From Rhodopirellula europaea 6C (GTDB taxonomy: Bacteria > Planctomycetota > Planctomycetia > Pirellulales > Pirellulaceae), in the NCBI RefSeq assembly GCF_000338295.1, contig NZ_ANMO01000117.1, forward strand, positions 1-64,000: a stretch of DNA of 64,000 bases, given 5' to 3'. The notes beneath the pieces are model-generated. The model was not told the origin of the DNA. It ran no database searches and was given only the letters and a program-made list of their open reading frames with translations. The translations under genes and the position numbers were made by a program. Of the stretch, positions 19,520 to 35,358 are shown piece by piece. The number at the start of each line of letters is the position of its first letter. Positions within the stretch are counted from its first letter, which is position 1.

Positions 19520-20854
19520 TCAGATCAGTTTCGTTTTGCCTGGGATGGCGTAGCTAGGCTCAGGACGACTGCCGTCCCACTGCAAGTCTTTGGGGAAGAG
19601 ATCCAGTTCTGATTCGTTGGCGACGAAGTCCCAAGTTACTTTCTTGCCGGTGTAAGCAGCCATGCGGCCCATGACGGCAGTCAGCGAACTCTTCGCGGTT
19701 TCGAGCAACTCGACGATTGGTTCGCCGCTTCGGATTGAATCGATCAAGTCCTTGTGCTCTTGGCGGTAGGCATCCGCGATGCTTCCTTCGAGCTTCAAAG
19801 TTTCCTTGCCGTTGCGGTCCAAGAAGGTTGATCCGCTGCTGCCGGCACCGATGACGGCGAAGCCCTTGGTTCCGCGAACTGTGCTGCCGTTTTCGGCGGT
19901 TGAACCAGGGATTTGGCGACACATGAACGAAACCGGACGCTCGTCGGAGTACATGTAGTCGATCGACATGCTGTCCCACATTTCGCTGTCGTCGGGACGG
20001 GTGAAGCGTCCGCCGGAACCGTAGGCGCTGACCGGTGGTCCTTGCATGACCCAGTTCATCAGGTCGATGTTGTGAACGGCTTGCTCCGCAATTTGGTCTC
20101 CGGACAACCAAATGAAGTGCATCCAGTTGTTGAGTTGGTATTGCGTGTCGCTGACGCCTTCGGCTCGGTTCTTGTACCAAATGCCTTGGCTGCAGTAACG
20201 CGAGGTCATGCCGATGATGTCACCAATCTCACCGTCGTGAATCCGTTTGACCGCTTCCATGTAGTTGGATTGGCGACGGTACTGGGTTCCGGTGACGATG
20301 GCCGTGCCGTTCTTCTCGGCTTCTTCGTGTGCGGCGACGCAGATCCGATATCCGGCGGGATCGACGCAGGAGGGTTTCTCAGCGAAGACATGTTTGCCGG
20401 CTTTGACAGCTTCGGCGATGTGAGATGGACGGAAGGCTGGTGAAGTCGTCAAGAACACAACTTCGACTTCAGGGTCTTCTAGAACCGCCTTGTAAGCATC
20501 CAAGCCTGAGTGAATGCGATCGTCGGCGACATTGATCTTGTCGCCGTGACGACGAGTCATTCCCTTGCGAAGTCGTTCCGCGTTGCCAGGATCCAAGTCC
20601 GCGATGGTGACCAGTTCGATGTTGTCGTTGATCGAGAACGAGTCGTTGACCGCACCCGTTCCACGTCCGCCCGCACCGACGATTCCGATTTTGATCTTGC
20701 GATTGGGATCAGCGGACGCGGCGTGAGTGTGAACCATTTGGCTGGCACCAACCGTTGCTGCCAACGCGGCGGAAGCGGAAGCACCGCGTCGCAGAACTTC
20801 GCGACGGGAGGTGGTTGGTTGATCAGAAGTGGTGCGGTTCAGCTTGTCATTCAT
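19520..20854 (-). CDS. Tat-exported Gfo/Idh/MocA-family oxidoreductase
   Basis: A 444-residue protein from the ATG of MNDKLNRTTS (an alternative start lies seven codons upstream). The twin-arginine signal TSRREVLRRGASASAALAA ends near HTHAASA. The NAD(P)-binding Rossmann motif is IKIGIVGAGGRGTGAV. VFAEKPSCVD is the family EKP motif. The C-terminal domain includes NNWMHFIWLSGDQIAEQAVH and NIDLMNWVMQGPP, typical of the planctomycete exported subgroup. Tat export implies folding with cofactor in the cytoplasm before secretion. Known exported relatives are glucose-fructose oxidoreductase and certain glycosidases, so the substrate is probably a sugar but is not determined. Appears monocistronic. 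Confidence 0.93.
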   Translation of the reverse strand: MNDKLNRTTSDQPTTSRREVLRRGASASAALAATVGASQMVHTHAASADPNRKIKIGIVGAGGRGTGAVNDSFSINDNIELVTIADLDPGNAERLRKGMTRRHGDKINVADDRIHSGLDAYKAVLEDPEVEVVFLTTSPAFRPSHIAEAVKAGKHVFAEKPSCVDPAGYRICVAAHEEAEKNGTAIVTGTQYRRQSNYMEAVKRIHDGEIGDIIGMTSRYCSQGIWYKNRAEGVSDTQYQLNNWMHFIWLSGDQIAEQAVHNIDLMNWVMQGPPVSAYGSGGRFTRPDDSEMWDSMSIDYMYSDERPVSFMCRQIPGSTAENGSTVRGTKGFAVIGAGSSGSTFLDRNGKETLKLEGSIADAYRQEHKDLIDSIRSGEPIVELLETAKSSLTAVMGRMAAYTGKKVTWDFVANESELDLFPKDLQWDGSRPEPSYAIPGKTKLI

Positions 20855-21212
20855 ATCAGGCTCACTCGGAAACAATCACAGGGAAGAACTGCGGGACGCA
20901 ATTCGGAAGGTTGGAAATCAGGTGGGATGAAGGCGGAGAAGAATCTGGTGGGAGGGAAGTAATGCGAATGGGAATCGGACGAGGCCACCGGTCATCTTCG
21001 GGAGCAAATCAAGCTGTCTTGGTGACCTCGTCCATCCCATCCGATTGGTCCACAAAGTGGGCCAACCGAAGTTCAGTTTAGTTGGGGTTTCTGGATAGGC
21101 GGCGTTTGGTTGGATTGGCTGTTCGGGCGTTCGGTATGGTTTTGTTGCTGGAACCGGGGCTAACGCCCAAACGGCTGACTCGGTCGAGATGCTGGCCCGC
21201 TAAGTCGTGCGT
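20855..21212. other. Intergenic region without a supported gene
   Basis: 358 bases between two minus-strand Gfo/Idh genes. A hairpin TTGGTCCAC-AAA-GTGGGCCAA (21045-21065, one G-U pair) lies ~150 bases past the stop of the right-hand gene and could end that operon. The remainder, next to 20854, should carry the promoter of the Tat-exported oxidoreductase. No RNA gene seen. Confidence 0.45.
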
Positions 21213-22331
21213 CTAAGTACTAATGGTTTCGTTGGTTTCTAGTTCGATGGTTTTGCCCGTTCGGAAGGATTCGTCCGCAGCCGCGACAATTTTCATTGAG
21301 TTGACGGCGTCTTGCAGGTGGGCAGTCAAATCGTTGTCTTGTTGTATCGCGTCAAGGAAGAACTGTTGTTCTCGATGGCACAGACCGTCGTGATCGGGTT
21401 CGTCTTCCAGATGGATCCATTCGTCGTCGCGGGCGAAGTTGCCTTCCGCGTTCAACTTTCCATGGTGCAAACGAATGGACTCTGTTTTGGTGTGAGCATC
21501 CACGTTGTCGCTTTGTCCCGTTGAAGAGGCCGATTCAGCGACGATGGAAACCGAACCGTTTGGTCCGACAACGTCTTTCACGAAGAACGCGGTCTCGCTC
21601 ATCATTGGCCCCCAACCGGCTTCGTACCAGCCAACTGAGCCATCTTCGAATGTGACCTGGAGTTGGCCGTAGTTGACCATGCCTTCGGGGAGTTCATCGG
21701 TCAGTCGCGCGCCGATTCCGGAAACTCGCACTGGACGCGAACCCGTCATTTGGCACATCACGTCGACGTAGTGAACACCGCAGTCGACGATGGGCGACAC
21801 GGTCGACATCAATCGTTTGTGTGTTTCCCAAGTGGCACCCGATGATGATTGATTCAGGTTCATCCGCATCACCAACGGTTTGCCCAATGTGTGAGCGATC
21901 TCGATGAAACGGTTCCAACTCGGGTGATGTCGCAGGATGTAACCCACCACGACTTTGCGATTGGTCGCCAATGCGGTGGCCGCGATTTCTTCGGCGGCTT
22001 CGACGGAATCGGCCAAAGGCTTTTCAACAAACACGTGGCAGCCCGCTTCCAAAGCCGTTGTCACGAAGCGTGCGTGGGTGTCTGGCCAAGTCGAAACGCA
22101 AACGGCGTCTGGTTGGGTTGCCTGAAGTGCTTCGTCGAAGTCTTGATAGGTTGGGTAGTCGCTGCCGAGCTCTTCGTTCAGCTTTGCACCGGACTCTTTG
22201 GACCGAGTGCAGATGCCGACGATTTCAAACCCATCGATGGCTTGGTAGGCCAACGCATGAGACCGGCCCATGTTTCCGGCACCGACGCACAGGATGCGAA
22301 CGCGTTCTTGGTTCGTAGCAGATTCACTCAT
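21213..22331 (-). CDS. Cytoplasmic Gfo/Idh/MocA-family oxidoreductase
   Basis: A 372-residue protein from the ATG of MSESATNQER, with no export signal. The Rossmann motif is VRILCVGAGNMGRSHALAYQ. CVSTWPDTHARFV and CHVFVEKPLADSVE (EKP motif) follow, then the C-terminal alpha/beta domain with VDCGVHYVDVMCQMTGS, where the histidine pair is in the usual catalytic region. Its ATG overlaps the nagB stop (ATGA), making it the third gene of the deacetylase-nagB operon. This suggests an amino sugar or sugar-derivative substrate, for example oxidation or reduction of a GlcNAc/ManNAc-like compound, but this is inference from position only. Confidence 0.9.
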   Translation of the reverse strand: MSESATNQERVRILCVGAGNMGRSHALAYQAIDGFEIVGICTRSKESGAKLNEELGSDYPTYQDFDEALQATQPDAVCVSTWPDTHARFVTTALEAGCHVFVEKPLADSVEAAEEIAATALATNRKVVVGYILRHHPSWNRFIEIAHTLGKPLVMRMNLNQSSSGATWETHKRLMSTVSPIVDCGVHYVDVMCQMTGSRPVRVSGIGARLTDELPEGMVNYGQLQVTFEDGSVGWYEAGWGPMMSETAFFVKDVVGPNGSVSIVAESASSTGQSDNVDAHTKTESIRLHHGKLNAEGNFARDDEWIHLEDEPDHDGLCHREQQFFLDAIQQDNDLTAHLQDAVNSMKIVAAADESFRTGKTIELETNETIST

Positions 22332-23161
22332 CGGATTGTTTCTCCCAACGTGGCCGAGGACAAACAATCAGCCGCCGCGTCGTCGAGCAGGTATTGCACG
22401 TCGCCGTGTGTTTGCAAGTAGGTGGCAGGAATGGTGGAGCTGATCTGGCCCTCAATGGCTCGCTGGACGATGTCAGCTTTGTGTTCACCGAACGCGAGCA
22501 AGCGAATTCGGCGTGATTGCAGAATAGAATCGACTCCCATTGTGATCGCGAGCAGCGGAACATGCTCGATGCCGCCGAAGTCCTTGACCGCATCCAGACG
22601 AGTCAAATCATCCAGTTTGACCATTCGAGTCCGCGTGTCTCGCGTGGCACCCGGTTCATTGAATCCGATGTGCCCGGTGCGTCCGATCCCCAGCAATTGC
22701 AAATCAATTCCACCGGACGATGCGATCAGTTCGTCGTAATCTCGGCAGTACCCGGGAACCGCTTCCAACTCGATGGTTCCCTTGGGGATGTGAACGTTGG
22801 CACGGACAATGTCGATGTGATCGAACAGATGCTGATTCATGAAGCGAACGTAGCTTTGCGCCGCGTCCGGTTTGATCGGGTAGTACTCATCCAAATTGAA
22901 TGTGACCACGTTGTGGAAGGACAATCCTTCTTCGCGGTGCATACGCACCAATTCGCGATAGACGCGAATGGGAGTTGATCCGGTGGCCAATCCCAAAACG
23001 CAGTTGCGATGTTGGGAGGCACGGTGACGAATTAAGGACCCAATTTCTCTCGCAACCCGTCGGCTGGCGTCACCGGCGCTTGCCATTCGCAGGACGGACA
23101 GCCCCGACGTGGATTGGGTTGGGTTGTTTAACGGCGAGGGACTTTCCAAAGTACTACTCAT
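22328..23161 (-). CDS. nagB: Glucosamine-6-phosphate deaminase
   Basis: A 277-residue NagB (usual length ~265). It converts glucosamine-6-phosphate to fructose-6-phosphate and ammonia, the entry of amino sugars into glycolysis. Signatures: LGLATGSTPIRVYRELV (phosphate-binding TGSTP), VVTFNLDEYYPI with the catalytic-region Asp, and LLGIGRTGHIGFNEPGA (the GIGxxGHIGFNEPG family signature). The start overlaps the deacetylase stop by four bases and the stop overlaps the next start by four bases, so all three genes are translationally coupled. The N-terminal ~20 residues are an extension beyond the E. coli protein. No RNA switch is visible. Confidence 0.95.
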   Translation of the reverse strand: MSSTLESPSPLNNPTQSTSGLSVLRMASAGDASRRVAREIGSLIRHRASQHRNCVLGLATGSTPIRVYRELVRMHREEGLSFHNVVTFNLDEYYPIKPDAAQSYVRFMNQHLFDHIDIVRANVHIPKGTIELEAVPGYCRDYDELIASSGGIDLQLLGIGRTGHIGFNEPGATRDTRTRMVKLDDLTRLDAVKDFGGIEHVPLLAITMGVDSILQSRRIRLLAFGEHKADIVQRAIEGQISSTIPATYLQTHGDVQYLLDDAAADCLSSATLGETIR

Positions 23162-24015
23162 GAGTGTGTCGCTTGCAAAGCAGAGTTGGTCGAGTGAGAA
23201 GAGTGTTGGATCGGAAAGAGAGCCGAAAGTACGTCATCGCCTGGGTGCCCGTGCCCGCGATGTTGTACGAACGCTTCGGCGGCTCGCGTTCCGATGTCAG
23301 TGCCCCGCGTTTGGCTGTGTTCACGCATTGCGGTCAAGTATTCGTCGATCCCGTTGTGTGAACGCAACCATTCCAATTGGCTTTTGTGGCAAGCCAGCAT
23401 CCGTGTTTTGGTTTCGAGTTGTTCGCTAATATCAACGAACGTTGTCGGTGTGATCGCATGACCCATTCGGTCTTGGCCATCGTGTCCGTCGGTGTAATAC
23501 AAATAGGGAACTTGCGAACCTTTGATGACCGGTTCGGCAGAGGCATTCGGGGCGGCGTAAACAAAACTCGCCGCTCGTCCGAGTTGGCCGGTGATTTCAT
23601 GATCGGCGTGGTAGTCCGACATTGGCATGGTGATCACCAACGTCGGTGCGATGCGCCGGAAAATGTCAATCGACTTTTGCAATGATTGGCGGTCGTAGAC
23701 GAGGCGACCGTCCGGTTCGTTGAGTGTGTGGAAAGTTGCACCAATCAACTCGGCCGCGTTGGTGCCTTCGGCGAATCGAATGCGTGCGGTTTCATCAGGG
23801 CCATCGTTCATCGATCCGCAGTCACCCGCTGTGACGGAGACGATATGAACTTCCCAACCTGATTCCTGCAGACGAATCAGTGTGCCGCCACAAGAGATCT
23901 CCGCATCGTCGGGGTGGGCCATGAAGGCGAGCGCCACTTTTCGATCAGGAACGGAGGGACGGGTTGGCATAGCGGGGCGACTCACGGTTGGGGGATGCGA
24001 TCTGTCGGGCGTCAT
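23158..24015 (-). CDS. PIG-L/LmbE-family N-acetylglucosamine-type deacetylase
   Basis: A 285-residue zinc deacetylase from the ATG of MTPDRSHPPT; the open frame runs to 24249, but the extra sequence overlaps the regulatory region of the divergent gene. VALAFMAHPDDAEISCGGTL has the AHPDD zinc and catalytic motif, and MSDYHADHEITGQL the second (H-x-D-H) motif. Relatives remove acetyl from GlcNAc-bearing substrates: GlcNAc-PI, GlcNAc-malate in bacillithiol synthesis, mycothiol precursors and archaeal chito-oligosaccharides. Its coupling to nagB suggests a catabolic role, making glucosamine from GlcNAc or GlcNAc-6-phosphate in place of NagA. A bacillithiol-type role is the alternative; the C-terminal ~40 residues (HRGHGHPGDDVLS) are compatible with either. 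Confidence 0.85.
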   Translation of the reverse strand: MTPDRSHPPTVSRPAMPTRPSVPDRKVALAFMAHPDDAEISCGGTLIRLQESGWEVHIVSVTAGDCGSMNDGPDETARIRFAEGTNAAELIGATFHTLNEPDGRLVYDRQSLQKSIDIFRRIAPTLVITMPMSDYHADHEITGQLGRAASFVYAAPNASAEPVIKGSQVPYLYYTDGHDGQDRMGHAITPTTFVDISEQLETKTRMLACHKSQLEWLRSHNGIDEYLTAMREHSQTRGTDIGTRAAEAFVQHRGHGHPGDDVLSALFPIQHSSHSTNSALQATHS

Positions 24016-24247
24016 TCTGCAGACTCTGGGGTGATGTTTCTCCACAATGATTGCCCTTTTGTGGTACTCTGTTTGCGCGGTCACGGGGCCGATTATGAAA
24101 CTATGCGCATTTTTCCAGGAAGTAATACTTTCTGCGCGCGAGCGTCGCTGGCATGCCGGTGAATGGATCCAGCCGGCAATTTCCAGCGAACGGCTTCTCC
24201 AGCCATTCCATTGCAACGTTCTGACTGACTCGAACCATGGCGTGTTC
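24016..24247. promoter_or_regulatory. Divergent promoter region of deacetylase-nagB operon and AraC gene
   Basis: 232 bases separate the divergent starts. It contains TAATACT (24123-24129), a plausible -10 element on the plus strand, and the imperfect inverted GCGCA/TGCGC pair around it. It is the natural place for operator sites of the AraC regulator, but I cannot identify direct repeats with confidence. Confidence 0.4.
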
Positions 24248-25117
24248 ATGAAAGCCTCTTACGAAAAGCTGGTTCCTAACGACGGCCAATCATTTCGATG
24301 TTTTGACCGTGCTTCGTTGCAGTCGCCAGTCAAATGGCACCGGCACCCCGAGGTTGAATTGACCTACATTCCGTCGGGCGTGGGTTCACGAATGGTGGGT
24401 GATCACATCGGCAGTTACACCGATCATGATTTGGTGTTGTTGGGATCTGAATTGCCGCACACGTGGGCATCCGACGAATACCGAGGCCAGGTTTACGATT
24501 TGCATTCCGCGATGGTGTTGCAATTTCATCCTGACTTCTTGGGGCCCGATTTCTTTCGACTCAACGAGATGGTTGATGTCCATCACCTGCTTCATCGCGC
24601 CAGTCGCGGGTTGTGGTTCCCGGCAAGGATGGCGGAATCGATCGGTAGCCAACTGATCGATTTGGAAAGACAGCGGGGAGCGAGACGTTTGGTAACGTTG
24701 CTTTCAATCTTGGATCAACTCGCAAGTTGCACCGACGCCGAGCCTCTAGCGTCGCATCTGTATCGGGCCAGCAACAACGAAGAAGTGGAGACTCGCATCC
24801 AGGTGATTTGTGACCACATCACGCACCATCTCACCGATCCCGAATTGACGCACAGCGAGTTAGCGGAACTGGCGGACATGAATGCATCCGCGTTCAGTCG
24901 GTTCTTCAAACAATCGACCGGGCGAACGGTGTCGGCGTATATCAATGAGTTGCGGATCGGGTTCGCTTGTCGATTGCTAACCGACACAGACGATTCGATT
25001 TTGTCGATCAGCCAGCAATCGGGCTATCAAAATTTGTCGAACTTCAATCGACGATTTCAGCAACACCGAAAGATGACACCTCGTGAGTACCGCAACCGAG
25101 TTCGAATCGCGGTTTGA
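24248..25117 (+). CDS. AraC-family transcriptional regulator
   Basis: A 289-residue regulator from the ATG of MKASYEKLVP; an open frame from 24047 exists but its first 67 codons have no family similarity. Residues ~20-110 form a cupin-like ligand-binding domain (WHRHPEVELTYIPSGVGSRM, then ELPHTW). Residues ~185-289 carry two helix-turn-helix motifs with the AraC signature (LAELADMNASAFSRFFKQST, then the ISQQSGYQNLSNFNRRFQQH block and the terminal MTPREYR). Divergent position beside the deacetylase-nagB-oxidoreductase operon points to local control by an amino sugar or sialate intermediate. Whether it also controls the nan genes to the right is open. Confidence 0.92.
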   Translation: MKASYEKLVPNDGQSFRCFDRASLQSPVKWHRHPEVELTYIPSGVGSRMVGDHIGSYTDHDLVLLGSELPHTWASDEYRGQVYDLHSAMVLQFHPDFLGPDFFRLNEMVDVHHLLHRASRGLWFPARMAESIGSQLIDLERQRGARRLVTLLSILDQLASCTDAEPLASHLYRASNNEEVETRIQVICDHITHHLTDPELTHSELAELADMNASAFSRFFKQSTGRTVSAYINELRIGFACRLLTDTDDSILSISQQSGYQNLSNFNRRFQQHRKMTPREYRNRVRIAV

Positions 25118-25127
25118 GCGATCGATC

Positions 25128-26831
25128 TCAGTTGGAAGATTCTTCCTTCGAAATTGCTTGTGTCAGTTTGACCTTCATTTTCAGTGACTTTCGCCGCCAC
25201 TTCGCCGCTTCTTCTTGGTCACCGCCTTTGAGGAAGGCGTCCGACACAACCATGAACGCTTCGGAGAGGATTTTGGGATCTTTCGGATCTTTGGCTTCCT
25301 GAATTCGACGCACAAAGTCATCCATTTTTTCGCGAACTTCCGGCAACGCACAGATCCTCTCTCCATCTCGCGTGGAACAGCCGAAGACGATTCCCGCCAG
25401 CTTGTCGTAGTCGCCGAGCAAGTCCGTTCCCTTGGGAACCAACCGCATCACGATTGAATTTTCGGAGTCGTTGGGGACTTCGATCTTGAAATTCCGGCGT
25501 CCGAGCACGATGGGGACCTCGTAGCGATCGTCGTCAACGTAAAGCTCCCAGGTGCCAACAGGCAATTTGATCCTTGCGATGCCATCCTTGTTGGTGTGGT
25601 CGACAAATGTCGATGGATAGCGAGGCTGGTTTTGTTGATTTTGGAAGTACGCGAGCAGGTCGGGATTTCCAAAGAAGTCCGCACTTCGCGTTAAAGGTGT
25701 GCCGTAAACTTGTGATCCCCAATTGGTCCACGAGACGTTTGGATAGGCGGTCACTTTCACGTCGCGAAGCGGTTTGTCGTCCAGGCTTTTCACCTGAACC
25801 CGGCATACATGCAATGATTCCATCTCCAAAGTGATCGGCGTGTCCAACGGCGGATCAAAGATGAAAGGGTGCCCGTGACGACTGTTCAGCTTTTGGGCTG
25901 CTTCCGGGGAACGGACTCGGTGATTTTCGGTTAGCCCGATAATTTGAATGGATTGATCTCTCGGCCAGCCTTCAATCAGAAAGGTCCCGTCGGCGTTGAC
26001 TGGGACCCAAGATGACCAAGTCACCCGTTCCCGAGCTGACTTCGGCGGAACGGTCATCGCCAGCACACGGCCATCGACGACTGGACGCGGAACATTGTCT
26101 GCGAGTTTTCCGGAGACGGCCGTGGCGGAATGAAGCGCAACATCCATCGGCGTGTTTGCGCCAGGGGTGAGTTCGACTTCGAAAATTTCACTGAAGTGCG
26201 TGGGTTCCCCATCGACCAGACGAACCAAGAGAAAGTCGCATTCACCGGGGAACAGATTATCAACGCGGACTTGGTCGCCTTGGATCTCCCGGCGGAAACT
26301 ATTTTCCAAAGAACCGATGTCGGAACGAAGGACTTGGATTTGGTCCATCGTGAAGTCGTTGTCTGGCTCGATGAGCGGCCGGAAAAGGATGCTTGCTGCA
26401 GGCTGCATTTCGATTTCAAACACGTCGTCGGACGGTACGTCCATGTGAATTGCATCTGCCAAACAGAATGACTCATGTCGAACATGCACAGACACTTGCA
26501 GTGTTCGCGATTTTTCGGCGACATCACGATAGAACGGGTAGGAGATGTTCGCGATTCCGTGCTTGTCCGTTCGGGCAGCTTCCGGCTTCATTTCGGAAGC
26601 GTCTTTGCCATTGCTGAGCCAATGACCGTGGCCCTGCGAGTACCGAAGTGCCCACGGAGTCACCACCGCACCTTCGATCGGATCGTCATTTGGATCGGTG
26701 ACTTGAACAGCAATCGTTTGTGTCGTTTGTTCGCCCACGATGGTGAACAGATCGTTCTCTTCAGCGGAAAGCGAACAGCGGTCGGATACCGCAAACAACA
26801 ATACAACGGCAGTTAGCAGCGATAATTTCAT
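25128..26831 (-). CDS. Exported protein with repeated beta-sandwich regulatory-like domains
   Basis: A 567-residue protein starting at the ATG at 26831; a GTG immediately before is the alternative. Residues 1-24 are a signal peptide (ending CSLSAEEN). Several carboxypeptidase-regulatory/Ig-like segments follow: IAVQVTDPNDDPIEGAVVTP, CRVQVKSLDDKPLRDVKVTA and GIARIKLPVGTWELYV. The C-terminal ~100 residues are charged and helical (EVREKMDDFVRRIQEAKDPK). I do not recognise an enzyme domain. It lies 101 bases downstream of the AGE-type epimerase on the same strand, so it may be the last gene of the nan operon. Carbohydrate binding or envelope adhesion would fit, without direct evidence. Confidence 0.75.
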   Translation of the reverse strand: MKLSLLTAVVLLFAVSDRCSLSAEENDLFTIVGEQTTQTIAVQVTDPNDDPIEGAVVTPWALRYSQGHGHWLSNGKDASEMKPEAARTDKHGIANISYPFYRDVAEKSRTLQVSVHVRHESFCLADAIHMDVPSDDVFEIEMQPAASILFRPLIEPDNDFTMDQIQVLRSDIGSLENSFRREIQGDQVRVDNLFPGECDFLLVRLVDGEPTHFSEIFEVELTPGANTPMDVALHSATAVSGKLADNVPRPVVDGRVLAMTVPPKSARERVTWSSWVPVNADGTFLIEGWPRDQSIQIIGLTENHRVRSPEAAQKLNSRHGHPFIFDPPLDTPITLEMESLHVCRVQVKSLDDKPLRDVKVTAYPNVSWTNWGSQVYGTPLTRSADFFGNPDLLAYFQNQQNQPRYPSTFVDHTNKDGIARIKLPVGTWELYVDDDRYEVPIVLGRRNFKIEVPNDSENSIVMRLVPKGTDLLGDYDKLAGIVFGCSTRDGERICALPEVREKMDDFVRRIQEAKDPKDPKILSEAFMVVSDAFLKGGDQEEAAKWRRKSLKMKVKLTQAISKEESSN

Positions 26832-26932
26832 CACAAGTGGCCCTTGAAATTCGCGAGTTCAGGCGTCAATTCACATGCGATGCCTGCTGGAATTATAGGG
26901 GAGCCACTGACTCGATAGCGGAATTGCCGCGA

Positions 26933-28108
26933 TCAGAAGAGATCTTTCTCCAGCCATCTCCAAGCCATGTACTGCATTCTGGGTAAATGGAACGGCCCTT
27001 TCCAAAGGTTACCTTTCAGTTCGCTGCTCAGGCTTCCGTCGCGGTGCAAGTATCCGAACCACTCGCCGTGTTTGTGATCGGGGAAGTGAGAGTAGGCCCA
27101 GTCGTGTGCCTGCCGGTGCCACTGCGCATATTTGTCTTCGCCGGTCAGCAGGTGAGCAAGAAGCGTTGCCAGGATGGTTTCGTTTTGCGGCCACCAGAAC
27201 TTCATGTCGTGCCAGTACTCTTGCACGGGCAAACCTCGTACATCGACGAAGTACAGGATTCCACCGTGCTTCTCGTCCCAACCGCGGTTCCACATCCAGT
27301 CGAGCATTTGGCAGCCGGTTTCGATCAAGTTGGTGTCACCACGCAAGTGACCTTCCCACATGATGAACCAAGCTCCCTCGATCGCGTGTCCCGGATTGAG
27401 CGTGCGTCCGTCGAAATGATCCAGGAGCTGACCATCGACTCCCACCGTTTCCATCACGCACTCAATGTCTGGCTTGAGGTGAAATTCGCGGATGGTGGCG
27501 ACACTGCGGTCAATCCAATGATCGGCATCCACCAATCCAATTGATTGCCGCAATTCTTGAGCGGTCGCGATGGTCATCATTGGGAATCCCATGCCTCGCG
27601 ATGGCCGAGTCGCGGTAAATTTGGAGCTCGCTTCGACGCTGTTCAAATTGTGGTCGACAAACCGGTTGAAAGCCTGATTCGCTCGCTCGCGGTAGTGAGC
27701 TTCTCCGGTGGCCAAGGCGAGTTCGCCATAGGCGATTGCCGCGAAGCATTCCGAGTACGCATAACGTCGTTTTCGAATCGGTTGGCCGTCTTGGGTGACA
27801 TGGAACCACATGCGGCCATCGGTCGAGTCGTAACAATGTTGGTCCAAGAACGCCGCGCCGCGGATAGCCAGTTGCAGCCATTCGTCCCGAGGCTCCACGT
27901 TGTTGTACAGTTCAGCGAACAACCATGTTGCTCGAGCTTGTTGCCAAACTCCTTTGTCCGTGTCGATGATGGTTCCATCGCGATTCAGCGAGGTGAAGAA
28001 TCCACCGTCTTTGTAATCGATGCCGTGATTGCACCAGAATGGAATGGTGTCACGCAGCAACCCATCTCGGTACACATCGATCAATGCTTGACGTCGCTCA
28101 AGATCCAC
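26933..28108 (-). CDS. N-acylglucosamine 2-epimerase (AGE) family protein
   Basis: A 391-residue (alpha/alpha)6-barrel epimerase starting at a GTG three bases after the upstream stop. Family blocks: DYKDGGFFTSLNRDGT at the N-terminus, RKRRYAYSECFAAIAYGEL, HFDGRTLNPGHAIEGAWFIM with the catalytic-region His, and WPQNETILATLLAHLLTG near the C-terminus. The length is right for AGE (380-420). AGE interconverts N-acetylmannosamine and N-acetylglucosamine without phosphorylation. In the nan operon it would replace the NanK/NanE kinase-epimerase route of enteric bacteria. Cellobiose 2-epimerases share this fold, but the context favours ManNAc. Confidence 0.92.
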   Translation of the reverse strand: MDLERRQALIDVYRDGLLRDTIPFWCNHGIDYKDGGFFTSLNRDGTIIDTDKGVWQQARATWLFAELYNNVEPRDEWLQLAIRGAAFLDQHCYDSTDGRMWFHVTQDGQPIRKRRYAYSECFAAIAYGELALATGEAHYRERANQAFNRFVDHNLNSVEASSKFTATRPSRGMGFPMMTIATAQELRQSIGLVDADHWIDRSVATIREFHLKPDIECVMETVGVDGQLLDHFDGRTLNPGHAIEGAWFIMWEGHLRGDTNLIETGCQMLDWMWNRGWDEKHGGILYFVDVRGLPVQEYWHDMKFWWPQNETILATLLAHLLTGEDKYAQWHRQAHDWAYSHFPDHKHGEWFGYLHRDGSLSSELKGNLWKGPFHLPRMQYMAWRWLEKDLF

Positions 28109-28111
28109 TGG

Positions 28112-30811
28112 TCAGCTCTCCACCGAAGCGACCGTTGCGGCGGACGCGGACGTGCCTAGCGTGTGAATGGTCAATCCTGCCAAGGAATCTGTTGGCGGTG
28201 ACGTCAGCAGGCTGGCCAAATAACCCGATGCAAAACAACTCGTGATGCCACAGGTTGTGTAGAGATATCCGTTGACGTCGGTGAATCGCCAGAGTGTGAA
28301 CATTGTTGCTGCGCCGATGGTTGCACCCACCATCGCTCCGATTGAATTCGCTCGCGTGGTCAATCCACCGAGCACGAAGAGTCCGCCCAAAACGCCCATG
28401 AACAGACCGATCACAACGATGAAGGTATCGAACAGGGATTTGATACTCGGGTCGACAAATACCAAACCAAGCAGTGTGCCCAAAACACCAAGTAAGAATG
28501 TCAGTGTGCGAGCGGCGATCAAGTAGCCGCGTTCGCTGCGACACAATCTCAGCGGTCGAAAGAAGTCCGTGACCAACGCCGTCGCGGTGGAGTTCATGCT
28601 GGTCGAAACAGTGGACTGAGCCGCCGCGAAAACTCCGGCGACGATGAGGCCCGCCAATCCGATTGGCATCTCGCGAGCGATGAACAACGGGAAGACTTGA
28701 TCGGTCGTGATCGCCGGTGATAGCCGCTCGGGATGCGAGTGATAGAAACCATGAAGCGCTGTGCCGATTCCGAAGAAGAGGATCGTCGCGGGAATCGTGA
28801 GCACCGCATTGGTCCAAATTGATCGAGCGGCAAGCGACTGCGACGCCGTCGTCATGTAACGCTGAACGACGGCTTGATCGGCGGTGTAGGACGAAAGGTT
28901 TTGCCCGATCGCTCCTACCACGATGACCCACAATGCGATTTGCGCGTGCGTGGGGCTGAAGTGCAAATTCGCCAGTCGCATTTTGTCTGCGTCCATGGCA
29001 TGGCCCCAACTGCCGCCAAAGCCGCCATCGGTCCCCATCAGCATCAAGACGATGGCCAAGAACGCGCCCCCGAGCAACACGACGGTTTGAATGGTATCGG
29101 TCCAGATCACAGCCTCGATTCCACCGAGCGTGCAGTAGGCAATGCTGAGTCCGCCCATCAGCAAGACGGCTTGTTGTGGCGTGAGCGGCGTTGCGACCGA
29201 CAATGCGAGTCCCGTTAATGACATCACCACCGCCATCCGGAAAACGTGGAACAACGAGAAGCTGAGGCTGCCAAACCAACGAACCATTCGGTTGAATCGT
29301 TTCTCGAGGTACTCGTAGGCACTGGTCGCATCAATCCGGCGAAAAAATGGCATTGCTACATAGACAGCAATGAACGCGACCAGTGGAATCGTGAAATTGC
29401 CGATCGAGTATGTCCAGTCCTGGGCGTAGGATTTGGATGGGATTCCGGTGAAGGTCACCGAGCTGAGCATCGTTGCGAAGATGCTGCACCCGGCTGCCCA
29501 CCATGGAATTTGGCTTCCGCCGCGAAAGTAGTCGTCGGTCGTTCGATTCCGGCGAGCGAAGTAAACTCCAACGCCCAACATGGAAATCAGGTAGGCAAAC
29601 AAAACGATGTAGTTCAGCGTGCCAAAGCTGCGTTCCGATTCAGCGAGTTCGATTTGATAAACGGCCGGCGAGCGAACACGTGGTCGTACCTCACCCGATG
29701 CGACGATGACCGAATCGCCCCAGTGCACGGCTGTGGTCGTCACGTGGTTAGCAGGACTGGTCCCGGCTTCGGTCCAGGTGTCGGTGATCGTGTGATAGGC
29801 GAAAGTCTTCTTTGGGAAACCGGGATGGTCGTCTTTGAGCTGGTCGGCCTGGCCGAACAGGCTGCCGTCGTCGCCACCGAGCACCACAATGTGACTTTGT
29901 CCGATGTGAGTTGCCGTTCCTGCCATCACCGATTGCGGGACGTCGGCTTTCTGCTGCCAGGCGTTCGTGCTTGGGCGATACGCCCAATTGTCCGTCAAAA
30001 ATTCAACGCTTGATTGCGATTGCCGGCGACCGCTGATGGAGTAGAGGCATGTTTCGTATCCATCATGCTGTGCCGCGGTCACATGCAAGGCACGCGGGGG
30101 GCCAGGGCAATCGGCCAGTCTGGCCCAGACAAGCGAAGCTGGATCATCTGATTGGCTCAGATCCAGCGCCCACAAATGGGATGTCGCGGTGGAGAGATCA
30201 CTGCCGCTCTGTCCGCCGACGACGTAGACGGTTTTCCCAATGAGTTGAGCGGATGCATGGACGCAGGGTTCCGGCAAAGCGGGAAAGTCAATTCGCTCGA
30301 TGAGCCGCGAAGATGGATCCCATCGCAGCAGATAGACGTCGCGGAAAGTGGCGTCGGAATCATTGCCTCCCAGACATAGCACACCGTGGTGAGCGGACTC
30401 GGATGAAGGAATTGAGACGGACGCCCCGTAGGCGGTCGGACTCGGCAACTTTCCCGCTTCGATCCATTGAGGGCCATCGTCCGTGCTGCTCTCTGAGGAA
30501 CGAGGTAGAACATAGATCGAATCGTGCCAGACTTTGTCGCTTTCCCAAACCGGGGTCGGAAAATTGGCACCGCCAGCCACGATCAACGCGTCCCCATGCA
30601 CTCCTACAAACGGGCCCGCCACACCGAGGGAATTGGGGATCGGAGGGAGTTCGCTCCATTTTAACCACTCGTCCCTTTCCGTTTGAGCGTGTGAGATCGC
30701 TGGCGAAATTGCCAGCATCCAAGTCGCGATGGAAATGGCCAGCAAATTCAGCGTGATGGACCGTGGATGCTGGAGTCGGACGCGAGGACGCAGCGGGCGA
30801 TGTCCGATCAT
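28112..30811 (-). CDS. Mutarotase-like Kelch domain fused to sodium:solute symporter (sialate uptake)
   Basis: An 899-residue fusion. Residues 1-42 are a signal peptide ending ISHAQ. Residues ~45-395 form a Kelch propeller similar to N-acetylneuraminate mutarotase NanM ([52 protein letters not shown]). Residues ~405-880 are a sodium:solute symporter with about 12-13 membrane segments ([40 protein letters not shown]). The propeller should face the periplasm, where it could speed interconversion of the alpha and beta anomers right at the transporter. The start overlaps the nanA stop by four bases (ATGA), and the AGE gene begins three bases after the stop. Confidence 0.9.
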
Positions 30812-31773
30812 GCGTCACTTGGCTTGCTAGAGTCTTCACTCCATTGGAAGAAACCGATCTGTTCGAGCGATTCTCGCAACGATGCAACCTGCGATTGCGA
30901 AAGTGATTCCAATGGCAATCGGCATGGACCAACGTCGAGGCCTTGCATCGCCAAGATCGCCTTCATCGCAGGATGGAACGGGTAGCGGCCGATGGTGCAG
31001 ATCATCTCGATGGATTTGGATTGCCACTGGCGAGCGGATTCCAATTGCCCGCTGGCCAATGCCAATGTCATTTTTCGATAGATATTTGCGGCCAAGTTGT
31101 ATGTGCTGCCGATCGCGGCGCGGGCTCCGGTTGCGGTCGCGCCCAACAACATCTCGTCACAGCCCCAAACGACGTCAAACTTTCGGTTGGAAAGTTCCAG
31201 GCAACGTTGAAACTCGAACAATTTCGTGTCGGTGTATTTCAGTCCGACGAGCGTTGGGATGGCTTCATCCGCTTGAGTGAGGAAGTCCACCATGTCGATG
31301 CTGGATCCCGTCAGCATCGGAATGTGGTAGTAGTAAAAAGGAGTTTCCGGCGCCGCCGACGCCAACTCTTGCATGCAGAGAGTGAGTGACTGCACGTTGG
31401 CAACTTTGAAATACGATGGGCAAGTCGCTGAGATCGCATCGGCGCCAATTTGCTGGGCATGTTTGGCCAGTCCTTGTGCCTCACGCAAACTGTTGTGCCC
31501 GACCTGAACGATCACCGGAACTCGACCGGCGGTCGCATCAACAAAGGCCGAGGCCACCAGTTGGCGTTCTCGCGTGGTGAGAGACATTCCTTCGCCGGTG
31601 CTGCCGCAGACGTACAGTCCGGAGACACCGTCGTTTAGCAGTTTCTCGACCATGGCGGGGACAACATCTAGATTGAGATCGCCGCACGCTTTCATTGGGG
31701 TGTAGGTCGCGGCGATCAATCCCGATAGCTTTCGGCCGGACATCCGCTGCATCATCAGAGATTCATCGACCAT
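30808..31773 (-). CDS. nanA: N-acetylneuraminate lyase
   Basis: A 321-residue class I aldolase of the DHDPS/NAL family. It cleaves N-acetylneuraminate to N-acetylmannosamine and pyruvate. Evidence: [18 protein letters not shown] (the GSTGE motif at 57-61 that binds the pyruvyl carboxylate), [11 protein letters not shown] with the catalytic Tyr near 148-149, and [10 protein letters not shown] with the Schiff-base Lys179; the YYYHIP and KYTD forms are those of sialate lyases rather than dihydrodipicolinate synthases. The N-terminal ~12 residues are an extension. The ATG overlaps the sialidase stop by one base (TGATG) and is preceded by a strong AAGGAGGAGAA ribosome site inside the sialidase gene. 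Confidence 0.92.
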
Positions 31774-33002
31774 CAGTTCTCCTCCTTGTCAGTGGCATCC
31801 GAACCGTTTTGCGATCCCGAGCGTTCCAGTTCGCTCAACGAGATCGCGGTGAAGCTGATCGTTTTGTAGTTGTCTCGTTCGAAGAGGACACCGATGCGAC
31901 CGTCCTGCATTCGCGTCAAACAAGAGTAGGCGAAACCGCCGGCGTAGATGTTCGTTTGATCAGGCCAAGTTTGACCCTCGTCGTAGCTGACACGAAGAAC
32001 GCCGTTTTCGCGTTTGGTTTGAGACGCCGGGTTGGCGAACAAGATTCGACTTTTGCCTTCCGACGGCCACGAGTAGCGAAGGATCGATGCTTGGCAGGTG
32101 GGCTCAATCAACGTCTGATCGATCTGAAGTTTTGACCACGTTTGCCCGCCGTCGTCGCTAACGGTGACCTTGCGATGTTTCGTTGAGCCCTTGCCTTGCG
32201 TTCGGGCGTTTAGCATCACACGACCGTCCGCAAGTTCGACCATTTGGACTTCGTTGGCGTGGCCTTTGCCGTCGCCGGGAGCCACGTCGCCGATGTTCCA
32301 AGTTTGGCCGTCGTCGTCGCTATACGCTGCGTAGACTCGCCAATCGTTGTACGGACCTTGGTTGAACGGCATGATGATTCGGCCCTTGTGGGAACCATTC
32401 CGCAGGATGATTCCGATGCCTGGACCCGCGGCGACGCTCGTCACATTCTTTTCGCGTTTGACTTGCTTTGAAACGTCATGCGGTGCGGACCAAGTTTGCC
32501 CATCGTCGTCGCTCGTCTGGACAAACGTAAAGTACGATTCAGCTCCGAAGCCATCTGACGCTTTGTGTTCGCCGAGCTTGCTGCGTTGATACATCAACAA
32601 GACACGGCCGGAATCAAGCACAACGGCTTGAGGGTTGTTCAAGGACAGTTTGCCTTGATCGTTCATCAGAACAACGTCGCTCCAGGTGGAACCGTTGTCG
32701 GTTGAACGCTTCATGATCATATCATTGTCGGAATGATCTCCGCCTTGCCGACCTTCGGCAAAAGCGAGCAAGGTTCCGTCGTTGGTGGTGACCAGCGAAG
32801 GAATGCGAATCGCGGGATATCCGTCTTGTTTGGGAACAAAGACATCGACGATCTCGCGATGTCCGGTGGCGTGATTGCCAGCTCGGGCGTCGATCGGCAA
32901 CATCGCGACAAGAAAGCAGCTTGCCGCAAAAAGGAACAGGATTGCCGAGACGAATGGACGGCTGACTCTGCGATGAGGCGGATCGGATAGCAGGCGGGAC
33001 AC
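31773..33002 (-). CDS. Secreted exo-alpha-sialidase (neuraminidase)
   Basis: A 409-residue protein. I take the GTG at 33002, which has GGAG seven bases upstream and yields a proper signal peptide (residues ~10-40, ending PIDARAG); the frame is open to 33179. The six-bladed sialidase fold is shown by IRIP (the (F/Y)RIP motif with the first catalytic arginine) and five Asp boxes: STDNGSTW, SDDDGQTW twice, SDDGGQTW and SYDEGQTW. FAEGRQGGDHSDND carries the catalytic-region Asp. It releases sialic acid from glycoconjugates outside the cytoplasm and is the first gene of the nan operon. BNR-type hydrolases of other specificity exist, but the operon supports sialidase. Confidence 0.9.
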   Translation of the reverse strand: MSRLLSDPPHRRVSRPFVSAILFLFAASCFLVAMLPIDARAGNHATGHREIVDVFVPKQDGYPAIRIPSLVTTNDGTLLAFAEGRQGGDHSDNDMIMKRSTDNGSTWSDVVLMNDQGKLSLNNPQAVVLDSGRVLLMYQRSKLGEHKASDGFGAESYFTFVQTSDDDGQTWSAPHDVSKQVKREKNVTSVAAGPGIGIILRNGSHKGRIIMPFNQGPYNDWRVYAAYSDDDGQTWNIGDVAPGDGKGHANEVQMVELADGRVMLNARTQGKGSTKHRKVTVSDDGGQTWSKLQIDQTLIEPTCQASILRYSWPSEGKSRILFANPASQTKRENGVLRVSYDEGQTWPDQTNIYAGGFAYSCLTRMQDGRIGVLFERDNYKTISFTAISLSELERSGSQNGSDATDKEEN

Positions 33003-33201: not shown

Positions 33202-35358
33202 ATGAAATCAAGCAAACTTTCAATCCGTCGAATCACGGCCCTTCCCTTTTTCGCGATCGGTACGCTTTGCGCTGTGCTGGTCGGGCCGGCGATGATCGTT
33301 TGGAGCAATCAGCCAAACGAGTTGGCCGGCGTTGATCCAAAGGCAACGCAGCATGCGGAGAAGGTAATTCCGCTTGTCGCACCTGAGACGATGTTGCATC
33401 GTCGGCCGGTCGCGGTCGTCGCGATGGGCTCTGGCCGTGCCGTCGTCGCGAATCGCCGGAGCGGGACGCTCAGCTTCGTTGACACGGAGTCCTTGCAAGT
33501 GAAATCAGAGTATCAACTCGGCGGGCATCCAACCGATGTGGTTCGATCCGGCCAAAGTTTGCTCGTGACCGAACAAGAGGGGCGACTCACTGCGGTTGAG
33601 GTCAAGGACGGTGAACCTCGCTTGCAATGGCAAGTCGCGATGCCCAATGAACCGGCGACGGTTCGAGTATCGAGTGACGGCGAGTGGTGCTCGGTTTGCT
33701 CGACTTGGGCGAGACGGGTCACCATTGTGAGTTTGCCGAAAGCGATTGGGCAATCACCAGAGGTCTTGGCTAACGTTGAGCTGCCTTTTTCACCACGTGA
33801 ACAATTGTTGCTCCCGGAGCAAGCTCGGTTGTTGGTTGCTGATGCCTTTGGGCCTCGTGTCGCCGTCATTCGTTTGGATGACTTTCAGGTCGAGTCCATC
33901 CGTGAGATACCCGGCAACAACATTCGCGGGCTGACGCTTGGGCGAGGTGGCGAGAACGTCTATGTGACTCACGAGTTGATCAACGAGATCGCACCGCCGC
34001 GAAGCAGTGAGATCATTTGGGGGTCGATGGTTTCGGATGCGACGCGTGAAATATCCATCCAATCGATCGTTGATCCCACAGCGAGTCTCATGAGCGGCAG
34101 TCGTTTCATTGCTGTTGGTAACAACACGCGAGGTGCCGGTGACCCCAATGAGGCTTTGATGCGACACGATGGTCGATTGCTGGTGACGATCGGCGGACTT
34201 GGGCAGCTCGGTGTGGTTGAACCCGATGGCATCGGTGTCACCCGTATCCCGACGGGCAAACGTCCGGTAGCGATCGCGAAGATCTCGGCGGATCGATTCT
34301 TGGTTGCCAATGAAATGTCCGACACGCTGACCCGGATCGATTTTCATTTCGATGCGAGCGTAGTCAGGAAGCAACCGAAAGTGAGTGGTGAATCATCGCA
34401 AGACGAGACACCGTATTCGGAGCCTGAGTCATACGACGAGCAGGAATACAGTTCGAGTGAGTATGAAAAGAAGAGCTACCGGACCGAAGATTATGACACC
34501 AGCGACTACGATTTGGATCGCGACGACGGCGAGTCTGAGGATGCGGGGTATGAGAGCGAATCCTATCGAGCTTCCGATGATCCGGAGGCCGAACCGGTGC
34601 TGGCCGTGCGAAAGATCGCGAGCTACCAAATCGGTCCGGACGCATCTGATGGAGTCGGTGCGTTGTTTGCGACTGCGGCGACAATGAACCTCGGCATTGC
34701 ACCAGAGCTGGAGCCGGCTGATCGTGGCGAGGCTCTGTTCTTCGACGCCAGTCTCTCGCGAGGTGGTTGGTACAGCTGTCACAGTTGTCATACCGATGGG
34801 CACACCAGTGGATCCTTGGCCGACACGCTCAGCGACGGAGGCGAGGGGGCGCCGAAGCGAGTCTTGTCGCTTCGAGGCGTCGGGCAAACCGGACCATGGG
34901 CTTGGATTGGCGACAAGTCGGAGATCGACGAACAAGTCAAACAAACGCTTCGGTTGACCATGCAAGGAAGAAGGTTGAACGATCGCGACGTTTCTGATTT
35001 GGTCGCATTCCTAAAATCAATTCCGCCACCGCCTGCCGCTGCTACATCTGGATCGGAGGCGGATCGACTGCTCATTGAGAAGGGGCGGCACTTGTTCGAA
35101 ACATTGGATTGTGTCGCTTGCCACTCAGGACACGTGTTCACATCCGAGGCCACCTATGACGTCGGGCTGGACGACGAACGAGGGACGAAGGAGTTCAATC
35201 CACCATCTCTGCGCGGCGTAGGTCATCTCAATGGACTGTTCCATGACCTGCGTGCGTCATCCTTGGAACAAGTCGTCGGCGAATTCCGGCACCAATTGCC
35301 GAGAGACCTTTCCGATGAGGAGCAGTTGCGACTCATTCGCTATCTGCAAAGTCTGTAG
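33202..35358 (+). CDS. Exported propeller/two-haem cytochrome c protein
   Basis: A 718-residue protein with an N-terminal signal anchor (residues ~10-35). Residues ~55-390 look like a YVTN/WD-type beta propeller (RPVAVVAMGSGRAVVANRRS, RLLVADAFGPRVAVIRLDDF). Residues ~395-470 are low-complexity and acidic, rich in Tyr, Ser, Asp and Glu. The C-terminal ~220 residues resemble di-haem cytochrome c peroxidase/MauG proteins, with two CxxCH sites: CHSCH (526-530) and CVACH (637-641). Similar propeller/di-haem proteins in planctomycetes lack a defined substrate. It is divergent from the nan operon with no functional tie evident. Peroxidase activity is not assured. Confidence 0.85.
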   Translation: MKSSKLSIRRITALPFFAIGTLCAVLVGPAMIVWSNQPNELAGVDPKATQHAEKVIPLVAPETMLHRRPVAVVAMGSGRAVVANRRSGTLSFVDTESLQVKSEYQLGGHPTDVVRSGQSLLVTEQEGRLTAVEVKDGEPRLQWQVAMPNEPATVRVSSDGEWCSVCSTWARRVTIVSLPKAIGQSPEVLANVELPFSPREQLLLPEQARLLVADAFGPRVAVIRLDDFQVESIREIPGNNIRGLTLGRGGENVYVTHELINEIAPPRSSEIIWGSMVSDATREISIQSIVDPTASLMSGSRFIAVGNNTRGAGDPNEALMRHDGRLLVTIGGLGQLGVVEPDGIGVTRIPTGKRPVAIAKISADRFLVANEMSDTLTRIDFHFDASVVRKQPKVSGESSQDETPYSEPESYDEQEYSSSEYEKKSYRTEDYDTSDYDLDRDDGESEDAGYESESYRASDDPEAEPVLAVRKIASYQIGPDASDGVGALFATAATMNLGIAPELEPADRGEALFFDASLSRGGWYSCHSCHTDGHTSGSLADTLSDGGEGAPKRVLSLRGVGQTGPWAWIGDKSEIDEQVKQTLRLTMQGRRLNDRDVSDLVAFLKSIPPPPAAATSGSEADRLLIEKGRHLFETLDCVACHSGHVFTSEATYDVGLDDERGTKEFNPPSLRGVGHLNGLFHDLRASSLEQVVGEFRHQLPRDLSDEEQLRLIRYLQSL

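Follow-up and report, generated by a model that had tools for sequence, protein, structure and literature searches.

The window, a 64,000-nucleotide stretch of contig NZ_ANMO01000117.1 of Rhodopirellula europaea 6C, very probably carries an operon for the scavenging of sialic acid that follows the Bacteroidetes paradigm, lying beside a separable amino-sugar module. A gene set for the release, import and breakdown of sialic acid is of a known type, and the locus is ordinary apart from the fusion of a mutarotase to a sodium symporter, which is its one unusual part and its most interesting feature. The nan half (26933–33002, minus strand) consists of the sialidase, NanA, the fusion and AGE, and the second half of AraC, PIG-L, NagB and Gfo/Idh. 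Gene families, order, coupling, conservation, key residues and the lack of a NanE match are observed; substrates, topology, regulation, induction and use as food we infer. The features are listed below.

31773–33002, minus strand: GH33-type sialidase, predicted to be exported (PF13088, 112.8 bits; cut-off 31.4)
30808–31773, minus strand: NanA, N-acetylneuraminate lyase (PF00701 match)
28112–30811, minus strand: fusion of a NanM-like kelch mutarotase and a SiaT-like SSS sodium symporter, predicted to be exported (PF24996 and PF00474 above cut-off)
26933–28108, minus strand: AGE (NanE-II), N-acylglucosamine 2-epimerase (PF07221, 171 bits; cut-off 23.4)
25128–26834, minus strand: predicted exported protein of no named family, a genus neighbour
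24248–25117, plus strand: AraC-family regulator, divergent from PIG-L (PF12833; longest ORF from 24047)
23158–24015, minus strand: PIG-L/LmbE-type deacetylase (PF02585, 112.9 bits; motifs AHPDDAE and HADHE; longest ORF to 24249)
22328–23161, minus strand: NagB-type glucosamine-6-phosphate deaminase (TIGR00502, 244 bits; cut-off 236.9)
21213–22331, minus strand: Gfo/Idh/MocA oxidoreductase (PF01408, 99.6 bits; longest ORF to 22367)

Every reading frame named in a preliminary description of this planctomycete locus was present, and the Pfam and NCBIfam families agree with its assignments (BNR_2, DHDPS/NAL, NANM with SSF, GlcNAc_2-epim, HTH_AraC, PIG-L, Glucosamine_iso and GFO_IDH_MocA). The planctomycete origin was borne out and the proposed GTG start of the sialidase at 33002 is usable (the longest ORF reaches 33179); the range given, 22328–33002, holds except at its lower end, where Gfo/Idh runs on to 21213. 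The overlapping or touching arrangement described for the minus-strand nan genes was confirmed from the junctions. The sialidase stop and NanA start share a TGATG, four-nucleotide ATGA overlaps occur at the NanA/fusion, PIG-L/NagB and NagB/Gfo junctions, 3 nt separate the fusion stop from the GTG of AGE, and 98 nt lie between AGE and the exported protein. The longest frames of PIG-L and AraC overlap; comparison with relatives suggests starts at 24015 or 23970 for PIG-L and at 24248 for AraC, which would leave a divergent promoter region between them. Promoter and terminator scans gave site numbers no higher than in shuffled sequences.

The best solved matches of NanA, AGE and the symporter are sialate or amino-sugar proteins. 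The sialidase has a single hydrophobic stretch at its N-terminus, and its best PDB sequence match is the sialidase 1eur (170 bits). NanA is closest to the N-acetylneuraminate lyases 5afd, 6h4e and 6arh (191–204 bits) and aligns with lyases at the motifs YYYHIP, GLKYTD, GCDE and GSTYN, which we take to hold the Schiff-base Lys, the catalytic Tyr, and the Asp-Glu and Ser of the sialate pocket. It falls under the NCBIfam lyase cut-offs (PRK04147, 174.8 against 281 bits; TIGR00683, 136.8 against 382) and likewise under that of the DapA model (134.7 against 206). Since the lyase cut-offs are database thresholds and represent no biochemical feature, NanA is likely to be a lyase of a divergent clade. 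The epimerase has AGE enzymes as its nearest solved relatives (8bry, 488 bits, against 71 bits with cellobiose 2-epimerase), but scores below the cut-off of the NCBIfam AGE equivalog (371 against 600 bits). A NanA was reported from Planctomycetes in 2009 (PMC2693436).

Gene order was compared across 62 named loci, 39 of them with at least 6 kb after NanA and 32 with 9 kb on both sides, and across 13 genus genomes. Among the 39, the mutarotase starts no more than 500 nt after NanA in 20, a symporter match lies anywhere in the locus in 21 (far upstream in L069) and AGE lies within 6 kb of NanA in 14; L019, in which mutarotase and AGE are both fragments, contributes one of each. No mutarotase match was found in 16 of the 39. 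The fusion is present in 23 of 60 genomes searched and in 11 of the 13 genus genomes; AGE is present in eight of the 13. The conserved order in relatives, which the preliminary description had put forward as a check, argues against chance. NanE (PF04131) was unmatched in all ten genus genomes searched of the 13, the window's own included; the control gave matches in eight of 14, E. coli among them. On this search of ten genomes the classical NanA/NanK/NanE route was rejected.

In the pathway that we propose, an exported sialidase would free α-sialic acid, an exported NanM-like propeller would accelerate its change to the β anomer, and the symporter fused to that propeller would bring the β anomer in with sodium. 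NanA would then split sialate into pyruvate and ManNAc, AGE would convert free ManNAc to GlcNAc, and the remaining steps to fructose-6-phosphate would fall to NagA, NagB and a kinase of the ROK or BadF type, whose genes lie on other contigs and in paralogues. The suggestion that the organism feeds on sialylated glycoconjugates is a reasonable inference. The claim that everything from polymer to fructose-6-phosphate except a kinase lies in the locus was overstated. NagA matches fall on contigs C15, C6 and C193 and none on the window contig, the one on C15 being above the curated cut-off; the candidate kinases above cut-off, three ROK matches and one BadF-type, are also on other contigs. Thus not just the kinase but also NagA is outside the locus, unless PIG-L substitutes for it. 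Counting against the proposed pathway, the organism's own assembly has a contamination rating of 4.48%; NagA occurs also in G002 and G004, relatives assembled as one contig each. By known enzymes, moreover, the pathway as drawn is incomplete in the genus genomes G008, G011 and G012: NanA and the fusion occur there, but AGE and NanE are both missing, and in G008 and G012 so is NagA.

The module of PIG-L, NagB and Gfo/Idh, together with AraC, probably serves to process an N-acetylated amino sugar and may have a substrate in common with the nan half. Its NagB matches 2bkv in the PDB (196 bits), and its PIG-L protein has the PIG-L domain alone in Pfam and NCBIfam. AraC adjoins PIG-L in the window and in all eight other genus genomes with the module, and the exported protein at 25128–26834, which gave nothing above cut-off in the Pfam/NCBIfam profile search, is kept at 50–86% identity in the window and the five linked relatives fetched. 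The preliminary description joined this module to the nan genes; made explicit, its reading is one integrated route that starts at sialylated polymer, ends at fructose-6-phosphate and uses PIG-L in the place of NagA. We consider this unlikely. The two halves are indeed adjacent in all six genus genomes that have both a close NanA and a close NagB, PIG-L and NagB are coupled through ATGA, and NagB–PIG-L fusions of the PRK02122 type exist, one of which, in this genome, adjoins a ROK kinase. However, those six genomes may descend from one inherited arrangement. NagB, PIG-L, AraC and the exported protein were matched in none of the 32 named loci that are flanked by 9 kb at each end, the module adjoins the nan half in six of 13 genus genomes, and it stands without nan genes alongside in three more (G003, G008 and G012), so that it is separable; a close NagB is missing from G006, G007 and G010, all of them nan-bearing. 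In this species the nan half does not require the module. As for the NagA step, PIG-L has no match to NagA, and NagA is encoded elsewhere above cut-off in six of six linked genomes. In favour of the integrated route, the module is present in G008 and G012 while no NagA match there exceeds 27.5 bits; in these two, PIG-L could replace NagA. As a necessary NagA substitute in this species it was rejected, NagA being present.

The fusion is one 899-residue frame with NANM and SSF domains, the mutarotase at about 45–390 and the symporter at about 395–880. The propeller belongs to the NanM family (PF24996, 108 bits; cut-off 45) and scores below the cut-off of the permuted subfamily TIGR03548 (143 against 243 bits). 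The best solved match of the symporter half is SiaT (5nv9, 346 bits), which, with the NanA motifs, bears out the description of a sialidase–NanA–mutarotase/symporter–AGE operon. In the predicted structure the propeller has a kelch fold with pLDDT mostly 80–95; the membrane half is weak (mean pLDDT 69.6 and pTM 0.52 for the model), and for that reason we make no claim on the placement of the halves relative to each other. The best 50 fold-comparison matches listed are all kelch or other propellers and are not discriminating, and the absence of NanM (2uvk) and SiaT from these 50 is uninformative. No description of such a fusion was found in the accessible parts of PMC3658417, PMC5931594, PMC10017367, PMC6254351 and PMC4897734, mostly non-subscription literature, and its absence elsewhere is unproven. 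Tentatively, the fusion may represent a family of uptake systems, widespread among planctomycetes and each made of one protein, in which an exported, circularly permuted sialate mutarotase at the periplasmic end of the symporter would turn newly released α-sialate into the transported β anomer at the transporter mouth. Its substrate pocket would be re-shaped at SiaT positions 58, 78, 82 and 250, perhaps to suit nonulosonic acids of environmental and not of animal origin.

The same positions favour a substrate other than Neu5Ac, such as Kdn, a bacterial sialic acid or another nonulosonic or 2-keto-3-deoxy sugar acid. Relative to the Neu5Ac contacts of SiaT given in the accessible parts of PMC5931594, Gln82 is Asn in all 32 aligned fusion proteins, and Thr58, Phe78 and Gln250 are altered in all 32 (to Met, Tyr and Ser, respectively, in 31 each). 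Against this, the carboxylate contacts Ser60, Thr63 and Arg135 and the sodium-site residues Asp182 and Ser342 are conserved in 32 of 32, and the sialidase resembles solved sialidases. Moreover, AGE acts on N-acyl hexosamines, and Kdn would yield none. We hold this alternative to be decidedly unlikely. Passage of ManNAc through the module besides, or in place of, AGE is highly improbable: AGE or the module occurs in each of the 11 genus genomes with nan genes (three AGE only, three the module only and five both), and G008 and G012 keep nan genes and the module without AGE, NanE or NagA, but a class lacking both would be empty by chance about one time in three (56/165, hypergeometric, relatedness ignored) and no module enzyme is a known ManNAc 2-epimerase. 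The locus may owe its presence to sialic acid that the organism makes itself; a search for NeuB (PF03102) yielded a single match, partial and marginal (24.1 bits; cut-off 22.1).

A scavenging operon of the Bacteroidetes type would place that route of sialate uptake and entry in environmental planctomycetes. This has a bearing on the retention, by free-living marine bacteria, of genes formerly associated with animal hosts. With the fusion one could ask directly if sialate import is limited by mutarotation; the relatives without AGE or NagA point to further steps beyond the known enzymes.

In the Bacteroidetes paradigm, as given in the accessible parts of PMC8754123 and PMC10017367, sialate is converted to ManNAc and, by AGE, to GlcNAc, after which a kinase acts. 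The systems of Bacteroides fragilis and Tannerella forsythia (NanL/NanA, NanE-II, which is AGE, and RokA) resemble the present one, so far as those sources describe them, in a clustered lyase and AGE, the lack of a NanE match, and a kinase and NagA elsewhere. NanA and AGE lie within 10 ORFs of each other here, with one gene between. Uptake differs, being assigned to the mutarotase–symporter fusion, and the kinases are ROK or BadF-type candidates. SiaT of Proteus mirabilis (5NV9/5NVA) is the nearest solved relative of the membrane half and shares the five conserved residues named above, whereas the window symporter is fused to a propeller and differs at five SiaT positions (Thr58, Phe78, Gln82, Phe243 and Gln250). 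NanM/YjhT of E. coli (2UVK) is likewise a kelch propeller, but is a separate protein, and the window propeller is circularly permuted relative to it (residues 50–138 correspond to YjhT 229–317, and 188–385 to 15–220). With the NagB part of the PRK02122-type (NF002557) fusion on contig C228 of this genome, the NagB of the window shares 58% identity over 238 residues; in the window the two functions are in coupled genes, and PIG-L aligns to that fusion over 67 residues only (43%).

All open reading frames named in the preliminary description were found in the window with the expected domains, and its overlapping or touching genes were borne out (TGATG at sialidase/NanA; ATGA at NanA/fusion, PIG-L/NagB and NagB/Gfo). 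Transcription on the minus strand runs from sialidase through NanA, an 899-residue protein with mutarotase and symporter in a single open frame, and AGE (3 nt after the fusion) to an exported protein; PIG-L, NagB and Gfo/Idh run divergently from the AraC gene. For several genes the longest frame starts too early, and likelier starts were verified as open frames. The source genome (7.19 Mb; the window is on its contig C117) has a completeness of 99.93% and a contamination of 4.48%. The nan genes and the genes flanking the locus are as follows.

26933–33002, minus strand: sialidase, NanA, NanM-like mutarotase–SiaT-like symporter fusion, AGE
33202–35358: beta-propeller protein with cytochrome c peroxidase-like matches, flanking the locus
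19520–20875: second Gfo/Idh gene, flanking the locus

Both flanking genes are kept alongside in all five relatives fetched that, like the window, have the nan genes and the PIG-L module (AraC, PIG-L, NagB and Gfo/Idh) adjacent. In the window, the sialidase start lies only ∼200 bases from its neighbouring gene. A short regulator-like gene, GntR-like by eye, adjoins the sialidase in genome G011 (L137:13688–14443); NanR belongs to the GntR family.

The three best solved-structure matches of NanA are N-acetylneuraminate lyases (191–204 bits), the first dihydrodipicolinate synthase scoring 94 bits. Motifs with the Schiff-base lysine, the catalytic tyrosine, and the Asp-Glu and serine of the sialate pocket are present. 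The NCBIfam lyase cut-offs are not reached, which would suit a member of the Bacteroidetes/Verrucomicrobia/Planctomycetes clade, placed near eukaryotes in PMC2693436. G004 carries a NanA 94% identical to that of the window. AGE scores 488 bits against PDB entry 8bry and only 71 bits against cellobiose epimerase; the sialidase scores 170 bits against 1eur and is one of seven BNR_2 matches in its own genome.

The fusion has a signal-like stretch at residues 18–39 and its next hydrophobic stretch only from 396. Between them lies a kelch propeller (∼50–390) with predicted-structure pLDDT mostly of 80–95 (three ten-residue blocks at 67–77), which aligns to YjhT in circularly permuted order. Counting matches that start at residue 50 or before and end at 872 or beyond, the fusion was found in 23 of 60 genomes (11/13 in the genus, 8/24 in other family members and 4/23 in other order members). 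Two of the 23 (G005 and G007) have one TGA listed within the match, yet in each a frame free of stops (901 and 894 residues, respectively) contains both halves. Among the loci scanned, 35 frames, including two records present twice, hold both halves; L015 and L028 have a partial symporter. Two frames share the symporter part in L015 (11141–13712, Rhodopirellula maiorica SM1), through either a genuine break or an error in sequencing.

The symporter half matches SiaT with 346 bits. Using the SiaT contacts listed in PMC5931594, we compared 32 aligned proteins (the window's and 31 of the 35). Ser60, Thr63, Arg135, Asp182 and Ser342 are retained in all 32 and Asn247 in 31, whereas all 32 have Asn for Gln82 and one of Ala, Gly or Ser for Phe243, and Thr58 is Met, Phe78 Tyr and Gln250 Ser in 31 each. 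According to the same paper, uptake by SiaT is increased by Thr58 to Ala and abolished by Gln82 to Asp; the effect of Asn at position 82 is thus not predictable. We infer that the substrate would be a sialic acid-like anion, which names a class rather than an exact sugar.

Searching named genomes with NanA gave 62 loci. Most belong to planctomycetes; the remainder come from Bacteroidota, Akkermansia and others. Gene order was counted in 39 of them, where the sequence extends 6 kb or more beyond NanA. The mutarotase starts within 500 nt of NanA in 20, a symporter match occurs in 21 (once far upstream) and AGE lies within 6 kb in 14. No mutarotase match was present in 16 of the 39, so the nan order is common but not universal. 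In Blastopirellula marina DSM 3645 (L019, after position 10891) NanA is followed only by short mutarotase and AGE pieces; both matches are fragments, no symporter match was found, and the operon looks decayed. A neighbouring sialidase of the window type occurs among named loci only in R. maiorica (65% identity; others 30–36%), and identity is 65–77% in the five linked relatives.

Of the named loci, 32 extend for 9 kb or more to either side. NagB, PIG-L, AraC and the exported protein had no match at E below 1e-8 in any of these, and Gfo/Idh-family matches to the window gene occurred in five. Across the 13 genus genomes, close NanA (at least 60%) is found in nine, close NagB (at least 66%) in nine and both in six, always 7–9 kb apart in unchanged order except that G011 lacks AGE. 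The preliminary description proposed a single set from sialylated polymer to fructose-6-phosphate, apart from a kinase; made explicit, such a pathway would have PIG-L in place of NagA. The two halves are adjacent in six genomes, but AraC–PIG-L–NagB–Gfo occurs without nan genes within the fetched stretch in G003, G008 and G012 (in the last, most of a 13.7 kb contig), and nan genes occur without the module in G006, G007 and G010. Since the six may derive from one inherited arrangement, their linkage argues only weakly for a common function.

NanE was found in none of the ten genus genomes searched, leaving AGE as the only known ManNAc epimerase here. Elsewhere the window's own genome has NagA over the cut-off (contig C15), a shorter NagA-like gene overlapping a NagB-like gene (C6), a 637-residue NagB–PIG-L fusion adjoining a ROK kinase (C228, L141:345–3357; NF002557, 999 bits), likely an operon for amino sugars that may also supply the missing kinase, and a BadF-type kinase clustered with MurNAc-6-phosphate etherase and an SSS symporter (C216, L145:4696–8242), which suggests MurNAc uptake or recycling. 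Fructose-6-phosphate is therefore available from GlcNAc without the module, which counts against the single pathway. NagA exceeds the cut-off in six of 11 nan-bearing genus genomes, exactly the linked six; G006 and G007 come near (205 and 201 versus 225.65 bits), G010 has only a shorter NagA-like gene (144 bits), and nothing above 27.5 bits was found in G008 and G012. Without NagA, the module's PIG-L is the natural candidate for deacetylation in these two, which slightly raises the single-pathway reading; we nevertheless consider it rather unlikely.

Genome searches found neither AGE nor NanE in G008, G011 and G012, which have the fusion, the module and NanA (46, 64 and 47% identity); in G011 the neighbours to either side are otherwise conserved, with AGE absent between them. 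G006, G007 and G010 have AGE. Handling of ManNAc by the module as well as, or instead of, AGE gained from the NagA search but stays improbable; the AGE/module pattern by itself fits chance (56/165).

The mutarotase is its own gene in the Runella and Arsenicibacter loci, and Alienimonas (L037) has the halves in separate frames, unlike the window fusion. The literature passages searched describe no such fusion. Already known are NanA in three planctomycete genera, reported in 2009 (PMC2693436), the Nan cluster of planctomycete isolate SKZ5.6 and, as cited there, growth of Rhodopirellula halodulae on mucin (PMC11929135), the Bacteroidetes paradigm (defined in PMC8754123, described in PMC10017367) and widespread sialic acid catabolism in free-living habitats (PMC10570557). 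The notable part of the locus is the fusion protein; the rest is of known type.
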